Origin: Pirellulales bacterium
Lineage (GTDB): Bacteria > Planctomycetota > Planctomycetia > Pirellulales > JADZDJ01
Direction: 5' to 3'
Length of the DNA: 35,917 nucleotides
Assembly: GCA_020851115.1 (NCBI GenBank)
Contig: JADZDJ010000053.1
Coordinates: 1 to 35,917, forward strand
The translations under genes were made by a program, and so were the position numbers. The notes under the pieces were generated by a model. It saw only the letters and a list, made by a program, of their open reading frames with translations. It did no database searches and was not told the origin of the DNA. How positions within the stretch are numbered: position 1 is the stretch's first letter; every line of letters starts with the position of its first letter. Positions 16,663 to 28,870 of the stretch are shown one piece after another.

Positions 16663-17499
16663 TTAGCGACGCGCAGGGTATCGATTTGACGGCCTTCTGC
16701 TGACTTCCGCGGAAGGCCCGACAGGGAGGTAGACTTCGCCGACGATTGGTTGCCGCCAGATCGGCTTCCCAGTTTTCTGATCGCGGGCCTCTAACATGCG
16801 ATGCACGAGTTGTACGCCGCCTTCAATCTTCTCGTTCCGCTGAGTCACATTTAGCCGTTTGTCGCCCACATCGTAGAACGCCAGTTTGCGATTCAGGGTC
16901 ACCTTGCGTGGCGCTGGATCGACGGTGACTTTGTTTTCGCCAGTTTCCAGATCGACGTGGACCGTACCGGTCGTGGTTTTCTTTGCAGAGGCAATCATTT
17001 CTGGCGTTGCCTTGCCTTGAGCGACGGCTAGCTCGCGAGCCGCGTGCCAACGGAGCGTCAAGATGTTGTCTTCGGTCGATGCGACCGCTTCGAACGACAA
17101 TCCCAGTCCGCCACCAACGGCGACCCATTCGGGAAAGACAATTTGCTGACAGTGCATCAGCACCTTACTCGTCGCTGCATCGAGGAAGACGAGTTGCATC
17201 GCATTGGGTGGCAATTTATTTTGCGCGGTTCGCGCAATCACTCGGTCGCCAGCGACCGCCAGCGGCAATTGGGCTTCTTTCGATTCCCACCGCTGCTCGC
17301 CCGTTGCCAGATCCAGTGCCAGCAGCGATTCACTCGGCCCTGTGACATAGACGCTTTGGCTGTCAGGGTCGGCAACGCCCGATGGAATAACAATCCACGA
17401 CATGGCCGGCAATTTTGCAGGCGGTTCGCCTGACGTGGCGACCGTCGAAATAAGCATACACAGGGCAGCCGCAGCCGCCGCGGAATTGAGTCGAAACAT
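16663..17499 (-). CDS. Secreted PQQ-like beta-propeller repeat protein
   Basis: A 278-residue protein with an Ala-rich signal peptide (LNSAAAAAALCMLISTVATS, cleavage near residue 23). Two blade-like repeats stand out, LLALDLATGEQRWESKEAQL (about residues 59-78) and HRMLEARDQKTGKPIWRQP near the C terminus, both with the xDxxTGxxxW pattern of PQQ-like propellers. Between them are strands such as MQLVFLDAATSKVLMH and VHVDLETGENKVTV. At this length the propeller has few blades, so it may be incomplete or dimeric. It probably acts in the periplasm as a binding scaffold. PQQ binding is not implied by the repeat alone. Confidence 0.68.
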   Translation of the reverse strand: MFRLNSAAAAAALCMLISTVATSGEPPAKLPAMSWIVIPSGVADPDSQSVYVTGPSESLLALDLATGEQRWESKEAQLPLAVAGDRVIARTAQNKLPPNAMQLVFLDAATSKVLMHCQQIVFPEWVAVGGGLGLSFEAVASTEDNILTLRWHAARELAVAQGKATPEMIASAKKTTTGTVHVDLETGENKVTVDPAPRKVTLNRKLAFYDVGDKRLNVTQRNEKIEGGVQLVHRMLEARDQKTGKPIWRQPIVGEVYLPVGPSAEVSRRPSNRYPARR

Positions 17500-17804
17500 G
17501 GCACAACCCTCCGTGGTTTGCAGGCATTTAATCGAATCGAACCGCGACTGGCATCGATGAACTTTGGACGGCTCTCTGAAGATGGCCTCTTATCTTTTCA
17601 GGCGTTAGCCTTGGATAACCTTGCCGACGCGGGGTCGCATCTTACCGTTTTATGCGAATTTGCCAAAGAGCAGCTTCCACGGTACTATCCTTGCACGCCT
17701 CGGGCGTAACAATGCTTTCACGGGCATTCGTGGCGAATTTTGCAAGACTGCGGCTAACGCCTCGGCAGCCCTGAATTCTCGCGGATTCCGCGACGGACCA
17801 TCAA
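17500..17804. other. Non-coding divergent spacer with a 10-base inverted repeat
   Basis: This stretch separates the divergent PQQ-propeller and rhomboid genes and should hold both promoters. A 63-codon open frame at 17518-17709 has no family resemblance and is probably chance. The clearest structure is GGCGTTAGCC (17601-17610) and its exact reverse complement GGCTAACGCC (17752-17761), 141 bases apart. I found no RNA gene. Confidence 0.4.
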
Positions 17805-18656
17805 ATGTTCCCCTTTGCCGATACAATTCCGACGAAGCGCTGGGAGGTCGTCACGTTCATTCTCGTGGCGATCAATGCGTTAATGTTTCTATGGTGGAAT
17901 TCGCTGCCCCCGCGCGAGCAGCAAATTGCGGTGTATAAATATGGCTTCATTCCGGCTCGGGTGTCGCAGTTGATCAATCCGGCCAAGGTGCTGCCCTTGA
18001 CGCTGGAATATCCAAGGCGAATGGGAAATGGGCAACCGGTGACCGTTCGCGAACCGTTGAATTTGCCCGGCGACCGCAAACAAATTCTCGCCTCCGCGGT
18101 CACATGCATGTTCATGCATGGGGGCTGGATGCACTTGATCGGCAACATGTGGTTTCTGCTGCTGTTTGGCAACAATGTGGAAGATCGCCTAGGTCATGGA
18201 GTGTATGCGGGGTTCTATTTTCTCGGCGGCTTTTCCGCGACGATTGCCCATTGGGCGTTTGACCCGACCAGCCCGACGCCAATCGTCGGTGCCAGCGGAG
18301 CGATAGCGGCGGTATTGGGCGGCTATGCCGTTGCCTTTCCACATGCGCGGATCAAAACTCTCGTCTTTCTAATTATGTTCGTCACCATCGTAGAGCTTCC
18401 GGCCTATGTGTTCCTGGTGTTTTGGTTTGGAATCCAGTTGTTTCAAGGTTTGGGGATACTTCCTCAGTTTCTCGGCGGCGGTGGCGGGAGCGCTGCGGGT
18501 GTCGCCTGGTGGGCGCATGTCGGCGGATTTTTGGCTGGAGCGGCAATGATGTACTACCTCCGGAGACTTGTGCCGCCAGATCCACCCGATGAGGCCAAGG
18601 AAGATGGAGCGGGTTTTGGTGATTTTCAGCGGCGGCGTGATAACGCTTGGATTTAG
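17805..18656 (+). CDS. Rhomboid-family intramembrane serine protease
   Basis: A polytopic membrane protease, 283 aa. The catalytic serine is S164 in the GASGA motif, and the partner histidine is H238 in the later helix WWAHVGGFLAGA. The HGGWMHLIGNMWFL helix (about 105-118) supplies the conserved His and Asn that line the active site. A loop of about 60 residues between the first helix (about 16-31) and the HGGWMH helix is long, as often in bacterial rhomboids. The C-terminal tail (about 255-283) is charged and cytoplasmic. Rhomboids cut transmembrane helices of substrate proteins; the substrate here is unknown. The gene is divergent from the PQQ gene and precedes trmB on the same strand by 32 bases. 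Confidence 0.92.
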   Translation: MFPFADTIPTKRWEVVTFILVAINALMFLWWNSLPPREQQIAVYKYGFIPARVSQLINPAKVLPLTLEYPRRMGNGQPVTVREPLNLPGDRKQILASAVTCMFMHGGWMHLIGNMWFLLLFGNNVEDRLGHGVYAGFYFLGGFSATIAHWAFDPTSPTPIVGASGAIAAVLGGYAVAFPHARIKTLVFLIMFVTIVELPAYVFLVFWFGIQLFQGLGILPQFLGGGGGSAAGVAWWAHVGGFLAGAAMMYYLRRLVPPDPPDEAKEDGAGFGDFQRRRDNAWI

Positions 18657-18688
18657 GGGTTGAGTTGTATTATTAAGGTTGTTCGGTG

Positions 18689-19354
18689 ATGGGGCGACGT
18701 GCGTTGCGTAAGATTGATCCGTCACTCGATTTGTCGAGGCATTTGCTGGCCATCAACCAGTTGCCAAAACCGTGGAATCAGGCTGTGCTGTTTGGCCGCG
18801 AGGCGCCATTGGAAATGGAAGTCGGCAGCGGCAAAGGCCTATTCCTCGCGGAAGCCGCGACATTGCGGCCTGAGTGTAACTTCTTGGGGATTGAGATTTC
18901 GCAAAGGTACGCCCGCTACTGTGCCGCGCGGCTCGTCAAGGCCAATTTGCAAAACGCTCGCATGCTCGAGGCCGACGGCCAGCGTGTGCTGGCGGAATTT
19001 TTGCCGTCTGAATCCGCCGCTGCAGTGCACGTGTATTTTCCTGACCCGTGGTGGAAAGAACGGCACAAAAAGCGACGCGTCATGAATACGCGATCGGTGC
19101 AAGAAATCGAGCGAGTTCTAGTCCCTGGCGGCACGCTGCATTTTTGGACCGACGTCGAGGAATATTTTGAGACCACGATCGCACTAATCAGGGAAAACAC
19201 CCGTCTTGAAGGCCCGCTGCAAGTCGCCGAGCGCCCTGCAAGTCACGATCTCGACTTTCGCACACATTTCGAACGCCGCACGAGAATGCACGGCGAAACC
19301 GTACATCGCGCGGAGTTTCGAAAACCTTGGATTATGGCGAACTCAATTTGCTGA
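18689..19354 (+). CDS. trmB: tRNA (guanine-N7-)-methyltransferase
   Basis: TrmB adds a methyl group to G46 of tRNA using SAM. The 221-residue protein has the family motifs: EVGSGKGLFLAEAA (SAM site, about 44-57), FLGIEISQRYARY, and the TrmB hallmark VHVYFPDPWWKERHKKRR (about 113-130), followed by LVPGGTLHFWTDVEEYFE. The C terminus has the FERR and HRAEFRKPW segments that contact tRNA. Start is ATG 18689; the GTG directly before it is in frame and less likely. It sits 32 bases after the rhomboid gene, so the two may share a transcript. Nothing unusual in the sequence. Confidence 0.93.
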   Translation: MGRRALRKIDPSLDLSRHLLAINQLPKPWNQAVLFGREAPLEMEVGSGKGLFLAEAATLRPECNFLGIEISQRYARYCAARLVKANLQNARMLEADGQRVLAEFLPSESAAAVHVYFPDPWWKERHKKRRVMNTRSVQEIERVLVPGGTLHFWTDVEEYFETTIALIRENTRLEGPLQVAERPASHDLDFRTHFERRTRMHGETVHRAEFRKPWIMANSIC

Positions 19355-19772: not shown

Positions 19773-21485
19773 GTGAGCAAGCAAATGGTGTTCGACGACG
19801 AAGCACGTTCGCCGCTGGCCGCAGGCGTCGCCAAATTGGCCAAAGCGGTGCGAAGCACGTTGGGGCCGCGAGGGCGAAACGCCGTGCTCGACAAGGGCTG
19901 GGGTTCGCCAAAGATTACCAAAGACGGCGTGACGGTGGCCGAAGATATCGACCTGGACGATCCCTATGAAAATCTCGGCGCGAAGCTCGTCAAGGAAGCC
20001 GCTAGCAAGACGAACGATGTCGCAGGGGACGGCACGACGACTGCGACCGTCTTGGCCGAAGCAATCTATAAAGAAGGTCTCCGGATGATTGCCGCCGGGG
20101 CCGACCCCATGGCCCTGTCGCGCGGTATCAATAAGGCGACCGAACTGGTGATCGAAGCCATCAAGAAAATGGCCACGCCGATCGACGAAAAGAACCGGAA
20201 GGAGATTCAGCAAATCGCCACCATCGCAGGCAACAACGATCCTTCGATTGGCAGCGTGCTTTCCGACGCGTTTATGAAAGTCGGCAAAGACGGCGTGATC
20301 ACGGTCGAAGAAGGCAAACAAAGCGAAACAACGGTAGAAGTGGTCGAAGGCATGCAATTCGACCGTGGATTTCTTTCGCCACACTTTGTCACCAACGTAG
20401 ACGAGCAAACCGTCGAACTCGAAAATTGCCAGATATTGGTTTACGAGGAAAAGATCACCAATGCCAAGAACTTGGTTCCGCTGCTGGAAGCGGTGAGCAA
20501 GTCCGGCAAGCCACTGCTCATTATCGCTGAAGATGTTGAAGGGGAGGCGCTAGCAACCCTGGTTGTCAATAAGCTCCGCGGCATTCTCAGCGCGTGTGCC
20601 GTGAAAGCGCCAGGCTATGGTGATCGTCGCAAGGCGATGCTCGGTGATATTGCGGTGCTCACCGGCGGCACGGCGATTTTCAAAGACCTTGGAATTCAGC
20701 TCGATTCAGTCAAGCTCACGGACCTGGGCCGCGCGAAAAAGGTGATTATCGATAGCGAGAACACGACAATCGTCAGCGGAGCCGGCAAGAAGGACGCAAT
20801 CGACGGCCGCGTCGATCAGACCCGTCGCGAGATTGAAAACACCGATAGCGACTACGATCGCGAGAAGCTGCAAGAGCGACTGGCGAAACTGGCAGGCGGC
20901 GTCGCTCAAATCAATTGCGGAGCCGCGACCGAAACTGAAATGAAAGAGCGGAAATTCCTGCTTGAAGACGCCCGTTCGGCAACCAAGGCTGCACTCGAAG
21001 AGGGCATCGTCCCTGGCGGCGGTGTCGCTCTCTTGCGCTGCGAAAAGGCGCTCGACAAGCACGGTTTGGAAGGAGATGAAGCGCTGGGCGCCCGCATCGT
21101 CAAGAATGTGCTCGATTGGCCGCTGCGGTGCATTGCCGACAACGCCGGTGTCGATGGCGCAGTGGTCGTCAACCGCGTCCGCCAGATGAAGGGCAAGAGT
21201 GATGGGTACGATGCCGACAGAGATGAATATACCGATCTTTCGGCTCGCGGCATCATCGATCCCGCGAAGGTTGTTCGTACCGCGCTACAAAACGCCGCGA
21301 GTGTGGCAGGGTTGTTACTAACTACTTCCGCACTGATCACCGATGTTCCCAAACAAGAGGAGGAAGGCGGTCATGATCACCATCACCACGATCATGGCGG
21401 CATGGGCGGAGGCATGGGCGGCATGGACGCAATGGGTGGCATGGGAGGTATGGGTGGCATGGGAGGTATGGGTGGCATGATGTAG
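19773..21485 (+). CDS. groEL: Chaperonin GroEL, first copy (GGM tail preceded by a His-rich segment)
   Basis: Chaperonin subunit of 570 aa that would form the two-ring folding chamber and hydrolyse ATP. ATP-site motifs are intact: [35 protein letters not shown], and the catalytic Asp in [16 protein letters not shown]. Apical residues include FLSPHF (200-205), where the Tyr equivalent to E. coli Y203 is His204. The C terminus carries HDHHHHDH (534-541) and then repeated GGM to the end, coded by an 18-base DNA repeat (21434-21469 and part of a third copy). GTG 19773 is the start, behind AGGAGG at 19758-19763. GroES and a second GroEL follow. The sequence is more divergent from E. coli GroEL than the second copy is. 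Confidence 0.95.
21434..21480 (+). repeat. 18-base tandem repeat coding the GGM tail of GroEL1
   Basis: The unit GGGTGGCATGGGAGGTAT occurs twice exactly (21434-21451 and 21452-21469), with a partial third copy to 21480. Each unit codes for a stretch of Gly-Gly-Met. Tandem repeats of this kind can change in number by slippage, altering tail length. Confidence 0.75.
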
Positions 21486-21488
21486 TGA

Positions 21489-21512
21489 TCAACAGGGATC
21501 GACAACTGTTGA
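21489..21512 (+). terminator. Stem-loop after groEL1
   Basis: TCAACAG (21489-21495) pairs with CTGTTGA (21506-21512) around a ten-base loop, starting four bases after the groEL1 stop. No T run follows, so it is more likely a processing or attenuation hairpin than an intrinsic terminator. Downstream of it the groES leader repeats AAATTTCAA at 21530-21538 and 21551-21559. Confidence 0.35.
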
Positions 21513-21583
21513 CCGACGATCGTTTAAGCAAATTTCAACTTTTAAACTTCAAATTTCAATTCAGATTACAAGGAATTTCGAAC

Positions 21584-21886
21584 ATGGCAAAAGCTCCGAA
21601 AATTCGTCCTCTCGATGACCGCGTTGTTGTGAAGCCAGTGGAAGCTGAAGAACGAACCGCCGGCGGCATCGTGCTGCCAGATACGGCGAAGGAAAAGCCG
21701 CAACGCGGCAAGGTGGTGTCCGTCGGTCCCGGCAAGATGTTGGAGAACGGCAGTCGTGGAACGCTATCCGTCGCAATCGGCGACGAAGTGATTTACGGAA
21801 AATATTCAGGCACCGATGTGGAACTCGAGGGAGACGAAGTGAAAATCCTTCGCGAAACCGATATTCTGGCCAAGGTTTTGGCTTAA
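21584..21886 (+). CDS. groES: Co-chaperonin GroES
   Basis: A 100-residue co-chaperonin that caps GroEL rings. It starts at ATG 21584 ([20 protein letters not shown]) behind AAGGAA. The mobile loop is intact with the hydrophobic GGIVLPD tripeptide that docks on GroEL (about residues 26-32), followed by [34 protein letters not shown] and the closing ILAKVLA. The gene sits between two groEL genes, 98 bases from each, an arrangement in which either GroEL could be the main partner. Length and residues are typical. Confidence 0.96.
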
Positions 21887-21984
21887 TCTGCAATTCGGGA
21901 TTTCGAGTTCCAGCTTTGGATTTCAATTTTTGGATATAACAAATCATCACTCAAATCAATTCTCAGTAACTAGGAAACAAAACC

Positions 21985-23601
21985 GTGGCAGCTAAACAAT
22001 TGCTCTTCGAAAACCAAGCCCGAGCGAAAATGCTTAAGGGCGTGGATAAACTGGCCGACGCCGTGGCCGTGACGATGGGGCCGACCGGTCGCAACGTCAT
22101 CATCTCCAAGTCGTTCGGCGGCCCGACCGTGACCAAGGATGGCGTGACGGTCAGCAAAGAAGTCGAGCTTGAAGACCGCTTCGAGAACATGGGCGCCAAG
22201 CTGGTCAACGAAGTCGCTAGCAAGACCTCCGACACCGCAGGCGATGGGACGACGACGGCAACCGTGCTTGCCCGCGCCATTTTCAAAGAAGGCTGTAAAG
22301 TCATTGCCGCCGGTAGCAATCCGATGGCGGTTCGTCGCGGCATTGAAAAGGCGACCGACGCCGCAGTCGAAAAGCTAAAGTCGATGTCGAAGCCGGTTTC
22401 CGGCAAAGCTGAAGTCGCTCAGGTCGGCGCGATCAGCGCCAATAGCGACAAGGCGATCGGCGAATTGCTTGCCGATGCTCTGGAGAAAGTCGGCAAAGAC
22501 GGCGTCATGACCGTCGAAGAAGGAAAATCGATGGATACGACGGTGAAATTTGTCGATGGCATGCAATTCGACAAAGGCTTCATTTCTCCGTATTTTATCA
22601 ACCGTCCGGCCGAAATGAATTGCCTTCTCGAAGATGCGCTGATTCTGATTCACGAAAAGAAGATCAGCAATCTCCGCGAATTGGTGCCGATCCTCGAAAA
22701 AGTCGCGCAGTCGGGAAAGCCGCTGCTCATTATTGCAGAGGACATCGAAGGCGAAGCGCTGGCGGCGCTGGTCGTAAACAAGCTCCGCGGAGTGCTCAAC
22801 ATTTGCGCTGTGAAGGCGCCCGGTTTTGGCGATCGCCGTAAAGCGATGCTCGGCGATATCGCCGTGCTGACCGGCGGCACGCTAATCAGCGAAGATTTGG
22901 GCATCAAGCTCGAAAATCTCGAAATGAGCCACTTGGGCAAGGCCAAGAAAATTACTGTCGATAAAAATGACACCGTGATCGTGCAAGGTGCCGGCAAGCA
23001 GAACGACGTACAGGCTCGCATCCAGCAACTCCGCAATCAAATGGAGGCGACCGAGAGTGAATACGACCGTGAGAAGTTGCAAGAACGCTTGGCGAAGCTG
23101 ACTGGTGGCGTGGCGATTATTTCCGTCGGCGCCGGCACCGAGGCTGAAATGAAGCAGAAGAAGGCTCGCGTAGAAGATGCATTACATGCGACGCGCGCAG
23201 CCGTCGAGGAAGGTATTCTGCCCGGTGGAGGGGTCGCCTTGGTCCGCTGCACTGATGCAGTTGAAGCGGTGAAAGCCAAAGGAGACGAGCAAATCGGCAT
23301 AGACATTGTGCTCCACGCGCTCGAAGCGCCGATGCGCCAAATTGCCGATAATTGCGGCATCGACGGCTCAGTAGTAGCCGACGAAGTGCGGCAGAAGGCC
23401 ACCAATGTGGGCTTTGATGCCAATAGCGGCGAGTACGTAGACATGTACAAAGCCGGAATTATCGATCCAGTGAAAGTGGTGCGATCGGCCCTGGCGAACG
23501 CGGCCAGCATTGCTGGATTGATGCTCACCACCGAAGCGCTCGTGACGAACCTCGAAGACGAGGACAAAAAGCGACGTAGCCCGGAAGGTGTCATTCGGTA
23601 G
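21985..23601 (+). CDS. groEL: Chaperonin GroEL, second copy (without GGM tail)
   Basis: A second full-length chaperonin of 538 aa, started by GTG 21985 behind AGGAAA. Its core is close to the E. coli protein: [45 protein letters not shown] (apical substrate/GroES site with Tyr203 and Phe204 kept), and [15 protein letters not shown] with the catalytic Asp. The C terminus is different: [18 protein letters not shown] replaces the GGM repeats, giving a short charged tail. This suggests the two copies differ in chamber properties or clients. It follows groES by 98 bases and precedes dnaJ by 220 bases. Copy number and tail difference are seen directly; division of labour is inference. Confidence 0.95.
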
Positions 23602-26347: not shown

Positions 26348-26375
26348 TTGCACAGCCTACGGCTAGCCGTATAAT
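26348..26375 (+). promoter_or_regulatory. Sigma70-type promoter upstream of the split membrane-protein gene
   Basis: A perfect -10 box TATAAT (26370-26375) stands 16 bases after TTGCAC (26348-26353), which matches the -35 consensus at four of six positions. Transcription would start near 26382, giving a leader of about 38 bases before ATG 26420. It lies in the non-coding gap after yacG. Confidence 0.55.
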
Positions 26376-26419
26376 GCTCGCTACCCAGTTTATCCATTCT
26401 CCCAAATCGGAGTCTGCTG

Positions 26420-27682
26420 ATGGCCGACGACCAGTGCCGCATCCGTGAAATTGCCTGGATGGAACTGTTTCCGTGGTTGGGTTTGGTGCGCGCCGTTCGG
26501 CTAGCGTTTGCGCCGCGAATGCTGATTTTGGCGGCGGTGGGGCTGGCCGCAATGATGGCTGGATGGAAGCTGATTGGTTTGCCTTTTTCAGACAACATCC
26601 AACTGCACAAAGTCATCGAGGCCCACAAGAATTGGATAGACAAGGCGCTGCCCAAAGAGCCTCCGGAAGTTAGTATCGGCGTACTCGATCCGGCACGTAG
26701 CGCCGCCAGCCTTCCCTGGAACCTCTTAAGCGCCCCATTCCGCTTCCTATTTGACGAGGAAGTCGATGTTACCTCCTTTCTTTACTTTTTCGGCTGCGGC
26801 GTTTGGGCGGTGCTAGTGTGGGCAGTTTTGGGCGGAGCGATCACCCGCAGCGCAGCGCTTTGGTTTGCGCGCGAAGATCGACTTGGCCTGAAGCGGTCGT
26901 TAGGGTGGGGTGTCGTCAAATGGCCGGCCTACTGCGGCGCGGCGATTTTTCCGCTGGTGGGGGTTGCTGCTGCAACGGTCCTACCATTTTTGGTGTCGTG
27001 GATGCTGCGTTTTGATTTTGGATTGCTGCTACTGGCCATCATTTGGCCCGTCATGCTCCTGTGTGGATTTGTCTTGGCAATCTTGTTGGTTGGATTCTTA
27101 TTTGGTTGGCCGCTGATGTGGCCAACGATTAGCGCAGAAGGCACAGATAGCTTCGATGCCTTGAGTCGTAGCTATTCATATACTTACCAGCGTCCGGTCC
27201 ACTAGTTGTTTTACGCAGCGGTGGCGGGTGTGTTGGGCATGCTGGCTTGGGTCGTGGTAATTATTTTTGCCAACGGCGTGATTACATTTAGCTACTGGGC
27301 GGCGAGTTGGAGCGGCGGGGTTGGTCGAATTAGTAATATTCAAAAGGCCGTGCAAGCCGTCTCGGAAGAGATCGCACTTCCCGACAAGACTGCGGTGTTT
27401 GTCGCCGGGATCAACGTAATCTATTTCTGGGTCACGGTCGTAAAATATCTTGCGGTCGGTTTCCTATTTAGTTACTTCTGGTGCGCGACGACCTATATCT
27501 ACTTCATGTTGCGGCAAGCTGTTGACGCCACGGAGATGGATGAAGTGGCCGTTGAGGAAGAACCGGACGCGTACGGGCTTCCGCCGCTTCAGGGCGAGCC
27601 GGGGAGTGTGCCGCAGGTGAACGATTCGCTAGCGGATAACGCCGCTCCTTCGACGACGGCTGTCGAGCCGAACAACGGCTGA
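26420..27682 (+). pseudogene. Multi-helix membrane protein gene interrupted by an in-frame TAG
   Basis: From ATG 26420 the frame encodes a membrane protein of unknown family with helices at about residues 35-55, 120-145, 170-195 and 205-235, up to a TAG at 27203-27205. It then continues in the same frame for 158 codons with two further hydrophobic segments (LFYAAVAGVLGMLAWVVVII and a later YFWVTVVKYLAVGFLFSYFW) and an acidic, disordered tail ending VEPNNG. Either side of the stop reads SYSYTYQRPVH-stop-LFYAAVAG, a smooth continuation in which a Tyr codon would differ by one base. The first part alone ends without a tail, and the second part has no start of its own or ribosome-binding site. 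This is best read as one gene of about 420 codons with a nonsense change, a base-calling error or readthrough. A promoter with TATAAT precedes it, and function is unknown. Confidence 0.7.
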
Positions 27683-27760
27683 GGACTTGACCCAAGAGAT
27701 CTTCACGATTTGGAGTGTGTGCAGGGTTGGCAATGACTCGGTTTCCAAACCAGCACCAAT

Positions 27761-27937
27761 TTGCAGCTTTCCGAATTTTTCGACTGGTTGGTAGCGCTCC
27801 GAACAATGATTGAAAAGCAGATTGGCCAGTCCGATTTCGACGAATACACCAACAACTCGTTTGTCTTTCTTGTGAACCAATTGGGCAAAATGACTGAAGA
27901 GAGTCGCTCTAGGCAGCAAAGGACCGTTCGTTCAATT
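27761..27937 (+). pseudogene. Possible gene fragment cut off by the insertion sequence
   Basis: A frame from TTG 27761 encodes LSEFFDWLVALRTMIEKQIG and then FDEYTNNSFVFLVNQLGKMT up to the left end of the IS remnant at 27938, where it runs into IS sequence. Composition and codon use look like a real gene, but no ribosome-binding site is seen, and I do not recognise the family. No matching continuation was found on the far side of the insertion. It may be a truncated gene or chance. Confidence 0.35.
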
Positions 27938-28564
27938 AGTGTCCGATGTGGGGTTGAATCGTGTAGTTCTACTTTGGCAAGATTTCGTGGAAACTGATCG
28001 TGGAGCGGATCGCATCCTTGATGGCTTCGGTTACATTGCGACCCGTCGCGTAGATGCTTCGAATGACATTCACGGTGGTTTGGAGTCCCGTCGAGGTGGA
28101 GGCTTTTCGCGTGAGTTCAACGCATCGTTCCAACGTATCAAACAGCATGCCATTACACGCGCGGCTTACGTGGGGAAAGAATCGCCGTTCGACCTCCGAG
28201 CCAGGGGCGATGTTTTTTTCGACTCGCTCCACTCGCGCCGCACACGGCCTGCGGCCGGATCATCAACCACGGAATTAAGTTCTTGGATTCCTCGGCTGAT
28301 GATTTCGTCGCGCAGTCTAGGAAATTGGCAACGTACTCGATGCCGCCGCGCCCCAATCGCTTGGCTTCCACCGCCTCGTAATGCCTTTGGTCTTTTTCCG
28401 AGAGCGTTAGGTAAGAGTTCCGCATGTGTATCTTGGATGCTTCGTCAAACCACTCGAAAGTTGAGCTAGCCATCCTTAACCTCCCCATGAAAACACGCGA
28501 TGCCCAGGCCCGGATCATCACTCATGGCGGCTTTTCATCAAACACCAAATCCAAATCCGACACT
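27938..28564 (-). mobile_element. Internally deleted ISAzo13-family insertion sequence
   Basis: Imperfect terminal inverted repeats frame the element: AGTGTCCGATGTGGGGTT at 27938-27955, and at 28547-28564 the complement of AGTGTCGGATTTGGATTT. Between them lie the two ends of an ISAzo13-type transposase on the minus strand, with the catalytic middle missing. The element is about 630 bases, under half of what I expect for an intact member, so it cannot move by itself but might be mobilised in trans. No clear target-site duplication was found. Confidence 0.68.
27969..28473 (-). pseudogene. Decayed ISAzo13 (Rhodopirellula-type) transposase
   Basis: Starting at ATG 28473 behind GGAGG, the frame reads MASSTFEWFDEAS and LSEKDQRHYEAVEAKRLGRG, then GGIEYVANFLDCA, the helix-turn-helix start of ISAzo13 transposases. 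After DCA a frameshift is needed to continue with SRGIQELNSVVDDPAAGRVR (near 28240-28300), which matches the family. A second frame change and a deletion then join directly to EVERRFFPHVSRACNGMLFD and TSTGLQTTVNVIRSIYATGR, the C-terminal end. The whole DDE catalytic core between is absent. The last recognisable piece is HEILPK, then TAG at 27969-27971 and NYTIQPH in frame, where intact relatives have LPKWNY, so Trp has become a stop. The gene is clearly non-functional. Confidence 0.75.
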
Positions 28565-28870
28565 GATTGATCGAACGGTTCTAAGCCAGTTGGTGCTCAA
28601 CAAGATTCGGAAAGTTGTTTCGGGCAAACATCTTTAGCAAGAGGAGGAAATGACTTCGCATCACTGATCGCAGAGTTGCCGAAGTTGTTTTTTCGTCGTT
28701 CCTAACGAAAATATTTTTGTGGCATCCTAACTGCGGTATCCTCACGGCGGAGCATGAGAAGCACACTTGCAGCAAATAGCTTCTCAAGGGAATATAGAAA
28801 TGCGAATGACGAATTGATAAGAGAGGTAAAGTTCGCTGACTAAGTAGCGCCCGCTAAACCGGATTTTTAC
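28565..28870. other. Non-coding region between IS remnant and the DUF6798-like gene
   Basis: About 300 bases, AT-richer than the genes around it. A ribosome-binding-like AGGAGGA at about 28641 is followed by ATG, but its frame stops after five codons (MTSHH), so it is not a gene. Open frames on both strands are short and unlike proteins. The promoter of the following membrane protein gene is expected here; TTGATA near 28815 is a possible -35 without a good -10. Nothing else is supported. Confidence 0.35.

Follow-up and report, generated by a model that had tools for sequence, protein, structure and literature searches.

Introduction

The systems closest to the one described here are the in-frame stop codons catalogued across bacterial genes and the young pseudogenes, or premature-stop alleles, of bacteria. 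Readthrough has been proposed for numerous stops lying in frame within bacterial genes, and the large-scale study in question kept stops that are common to two or more species (Belinky et al., 2021; PMC7918605). Here, we analyze a stretch of 35,917 nucleotides from a member of the Pirellulales (contig JADZDJ010000053.1 of assembly GCA_020851115.1; hereafter, the window), in which a gene for a membrane protein carries a TAG codon within its reading frame. The features of the gene are as follows:

26348-26375, plus strand: probable promoter, TTGCAC and TATAAT separated by 16 bases, the TATAAT conserved in three relatives
26409-26412, plus strand: possible ribosome-binding site, GGAG, 7 bases upstream of the ATG, inferred from reading the sequence
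26420-27205, plus strand: first part of the gene, from the ATG at 26420, 261 codons and then TAG; four long membrane helices predicted from hydropathy and the structure model
27203-27205, plus strand: premature in-frame TAG, at a conserved tyrosine position and where the fifth long helix begins (helix 259-299 of the model)
27206-27682, plus strand: remainder of the gene, 158 codons followed by a TGA at 27680-27682, coding for the last two long helices and an acidic tail; a start of its own was not seen

Results

One gene interrupted by a single TAG

The reading frame that begins with the ATG at 26420 stays open past the TAG up to the TGA at 27680-27682; on the opposite strand, the longest listed open reading frames overlapping the gene code for 121 and 100 amino acids. 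The first-pass annotation, made from the window's sequence, had read the two sides of the TAG as a single gene, and the homologues bear this out: searched separately, the halves match two parts of one continuous gene, so that chance is excluded as the origin of the open frame beyond the TAG. In a set of 97 genomes, the window's own included, the first half finds matches in 93 (that is, in 92 of the 96 relatives) and none in 4, and the second half finds matches in 89 (88 of the 96 relatives) and none in 8; nearly all of the sampled relatives belong to the same order. In the three nearest relatives checked, G001, G002 and G034, the two matches lie exactly one codon apart (in G001, for example, at 18228-19016 and 17766-18224) and within one open frame, of 420-436 codons. 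No lesion other than the TAG is seen when the gene is aligned to its relatives. A search of the window's own genome gave one match only to the gene, and no second copy able to take over was found there at an E value of 0.001.

A tyrosine codon at the position of the stop in relatives

From the residues surrounding the TAG it had been proposed that the stop replaces a tyrosine codon. Alignment of the homologues places a sense residue at the site. Of 52 distinct homologous frames, from related planctomycetes, 46 have Tyr there, 4 have Phe and 2 have Leu; a stop interrupts the gene at this site in none of the 52. They were drawn from 63 loci, frames nested within another frame and frames lacking a match having been set aside; two of the 52 (L024 and L052) are truncated by contig ends downstream of the site. 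In our 17-row alignment (A1) all 16 homologues carry Tyr here, the Tyr in the row of the window being there by construction. At the DNA level the codon is TAT in G001 and G002, which are of the same family, and in G034, the next nearest by identity, and the TAG is one base away from this sense codon. Besides the window's own, rows with one inner stop were flagged in the 97-genome search (10 second-half rows) and in a phylum-wide search (4 rows); all 14 were inspected, and each stop is the natural C-terminal end of the protein within a match that extends too far. One further first-half match, a secondary one with two TGA codons (G081 C338), is a stretch unlike the gene. No inspected homologous frame ends at the site of the TAG or is divided into two separate genes.

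The gene in its neighbourhood

The order groEL, groES, groEL2, dnaJ, grpE, a gene for an FmdB-like zinc ribbon, yacG and the focal gene is common to G002 and G034, and G001 agrees over the extent of its stretch. Pfam identified YacG and the zinc ribbon; the chaperone genes (groEL, groES, groEL2, dnaJ and grpE) were named from their sequences. The focal gene of the nearest relatives is thus the orthologue at the corresponding position. YacG is present on the available piece at 44 of the 63 loci with relatives of the gene, and DnaJ, GrpE, FmdB and YacG are found together at 20; in these counts, many pieces are of too limited a length to reveal further genes, and some genomes are represented by two loci.

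Other parts of the window are worth recording. At 19773-23601, a single groES stands between two different groEL genes, an arrangement also found in G002 and G034, and the first groEL codes for a His-rich and Gly-Met-rich tail. The stretch of about 1.2 kb downstream of the focal gene (27683-28870) has no convincing coding frame, and a 176-amino-acid open reading frame within it (27939-28469) has no Pfam match. On the minus strand, at 16663-17499, a 278-amino-acid protein gives a short match to PQQ_2 (BamB-like), over profile positions 27-95 of 233 only, and may be a short or shortened member.

The protein and its family

The read-through protein was modelled from the 17-row alignment with a mean pLDDT of 79.5 and a pTM of 0.78. 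In the model, residue 262, the position of the stop, lies close to the N-terminal end of the long helix spanning residues 259-299, and a product ending there would be without this helix, without helix 325-369 and without the acidic tail, which itself ends in a low-confidence stretch (392-420). Helix 325-369 carries the invariant residues Y361, R365 and D369, and an invariant FGWPLMWP stretch also marks the family (17-row alignment). Phylum-wide, the family has matches in 85 of 149 sampled genomes, the window's own included. Neither the read-through protein nor the four members scanned have a Pfam or NCBIfam match above cut-off; one member (L055) shows a weak likeness to Pfam DUF7847 and to EI24/CysZ, both below their cut-offs, and the second part of the window's protein, alone, gives one sub-threshold Pfam match (E 0.38). 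Sequence searches found no solved relative at an E value of 1, and Foldseek no match to the model at 0.001, its best match, the choline-transporter-like PNS1 (E 0.006, TM 0.31), being too weak to use. A plasmid search returned no match to the protein and viral contigs no relative, with three pattern stretches only. As judged from its sequences, the family appears to be a nameless planctomycete membrane protein, conserved, and single-copy in this genome.

Start signals upstream of the gene and after the stop

The gene had been credited with a good promoter. The position of this promoter is supported by relatives, since G001, G002 and G034 keep the TATAAT (26370-26375) at the corresponding position, and G001 and G002 also keep TTGC at the same spacing from it; its strength did not hold up, as a pattern scan reported no promoter upstream of the gene at its cut-off, because the -35-like TTGCAC matches at just 3 of 6 positions. 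For the second half the annotation had found neither a start nor a ribosome-binding site, and we concur: the TTG directly after the TAG is an ordinary Leu position, also TTG in G001 and G002, and no Shine-Dalgarno-like stretch is seen before it by eye. The same observations bear on a scenario in which two polypeptides are made, ribosomes restarting at this TTG and the membrane parts then assembling. Split membrane proteins can assemble, and the TTG does adjoin the TAG; however, that codon has its place in the family as a Leu codon, it lacks a visible ribosome-binding site, and no relative with split genes was seen. We consider a restart very improbable. Two genuine separate genes were also considered and rejected, the gene being continuous in relatives and its second half having no start of its own that we could see.

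Constraint on the two parts and the age of the stop

For the first part (261 codons), dN along the branch of this genome is 0.235, with a bootstrap range of 0.186-0.294; for the second (143 codons) it is 0.220, with a range of 0.151-0.290. The dS is about 1.8-1.9, near saturation, and any dating of the stop is therefore rough. Had the second part been released from selection, its dN would have risen towards dS. From the upper bound of dN in the second part, we estimate that this part may have been free of selection for at most a few per cent of the branch. The equal dN of the two parts thus suggests that the stop is young, or not real, or not effective. That decay, if decay it is, would be very recent, as first proposed, agrees with this equality and with no second lesion being seen. 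An old pseudogene was rejected on the same grounds, the second part showing no excess of dN.

UAG as a stop codon and the case for readthrough

UAG is a normal stop in this genome. TAG terminates 8 of 29 other genes of the window, both groEL genes included (9 of 30 with the focal gene), in a set hand-picked from the list of open reading frames. The gene for release factor 1 (RF1) is present (462.3 bits against a cut-off of 423.25). A CUA anticodon occurs at none of 47 tRNA loci, in a tRNA set that is incomplete (one CAT anticodon only), so that a suppressor may have been missed. In a survey of two large protein families, an internal stop was found in none of 56 ABC-transporter matches and in none of 21 MFS matches. 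Reassignment or suppression of UAG was rejected, since TAG is a common terminator, RF1 is kept and the 56 and 21 matches are free of internal stops; reassignment is excluded in practice. General decay of the genome, or an assembly that is error-rich throughout, is unlikely.

Without reassignment, the UAG could still be read through at some rate, by a near-cognate tRNA or in a regulated manner, yielding full-length protein at a lower level. The second part of the gene is as constrained as the first, in keeping with this, and in-frame stops with dN/dS below 1 have been reported in bacterial genes (Belinky et al., 2021; PMC7918605). However, the stop is seen in no relative, and hence is not conserved; no CUA tRNA was found at the 47 loci of the incomplete set, and RF1 is present. 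A stimulatory RNA structure was rejected, because the RNA 3' of the stop shows no unusual degree of structure (z -1.34, matched by 20 of 200 shuffled sequences). Moreover, such stops tend to be short-lived, on the scale of population polymorphism, according to the same study (PMC7918605). Readthrough is possible, is less supported than a base error in the assembly, and has no positive support; we hold it to be improbable. Marginally less probable still is a variant in which the UAG acts as a brake on expression: a fixed stop, decoded as Tyr or Gln by a near-cognate tRNA, would lower the dose of the protein with both parts remaining under selection.

Discussion

Our preferred reading, held with somewhat more belief than doubt, is that a single, very recent nonsense mutation has struck a conserved, single-copy membrane-protein gene; the weights given here to the competing explanations are a matter of judgement and were not computed. 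In favour of a nonsense mutation are the uninterrupted frame in relatives, Tyr at the position in 46 of 52 frames, TAT in the nearest three relatives checked, the equal dN of the two parts and the use of UAG as a normal terminator. Provided that the organism does carry this base, translation would end after residue 261, leaving a product with neither the acidic tail nor the final two long helices. Judging from the model, this truncated product would probably be non-functional or degraded, and the second part of the gene would then go untranslated save for low-level leakage. We infer both the presence of this base in the organism and the loss of function.

Several observations tell against a nonsense mutation. 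The gene is found in 92 of the 96 relatives and is near-universal among them, so that its loss should be costly, a point in favour of an assembly error or a minor variant; the draft assembly comprises 304 contigs and has 3.54% contamination; and the equal constraint on both parts would fit an error, or true readthrough, just as well. Thus, the TAG may instead be an error in the consensus base, or a rare strain variant, in a draft assembly that is probably metagenome-derived, the gene of the organism itself being intact. We regard this explanation as a substantial one, even if we would sooner doubt than accept it. A single base is concerned, in a gene with no other lesion, with no sign of relaxed selection and nearly universal among the sampled relatives, in a draft in 304 contigs of a genome that is not generally decaying (0 of 56 and 0 of 21 matches with internal stops in the two large families). 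The same clean statistics, however, also mean that the assembly is not obviously error-rich, and the frames for DnaJ, GrpE, FmdB, GroES and both GroEL proteins on the contig align as single frames to those of G002 and G034 over the matching parts.

A recent nonsense mutation of this kind is an ordinary event and not a new mechanism, in-frame stops with constrained flanks having already been described in bacteria (PMC7918605). On its own it is of little significance: automated gene calling would yield a truncated gene, or a pair of short ones, in place of the family's single gene. The family itself is the more useful by-product, as it is present in 92 of the 96 relatives and often adjoins chaperone genes.

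Compared with known systems, the interrupted gene resembles the young pseudogenes and premature-stop alleles of bacteria, with one in-frame stop, the rest intact and past selection still marked, and we found no difference from them. It also resembles the in-frame stops of Belinky et al. (2021; PMC7918605), in that an in-frame TAG has flanks under purifying selection; unlike those stops, which are common to two or more species, the TAG described here is seen in one genome only. Taken as a whole, the gene is typical of its planctomycete membrane-protein family (17-row alignment); of the frames inspected, the window's copy is alone in being interrupted by a stop.
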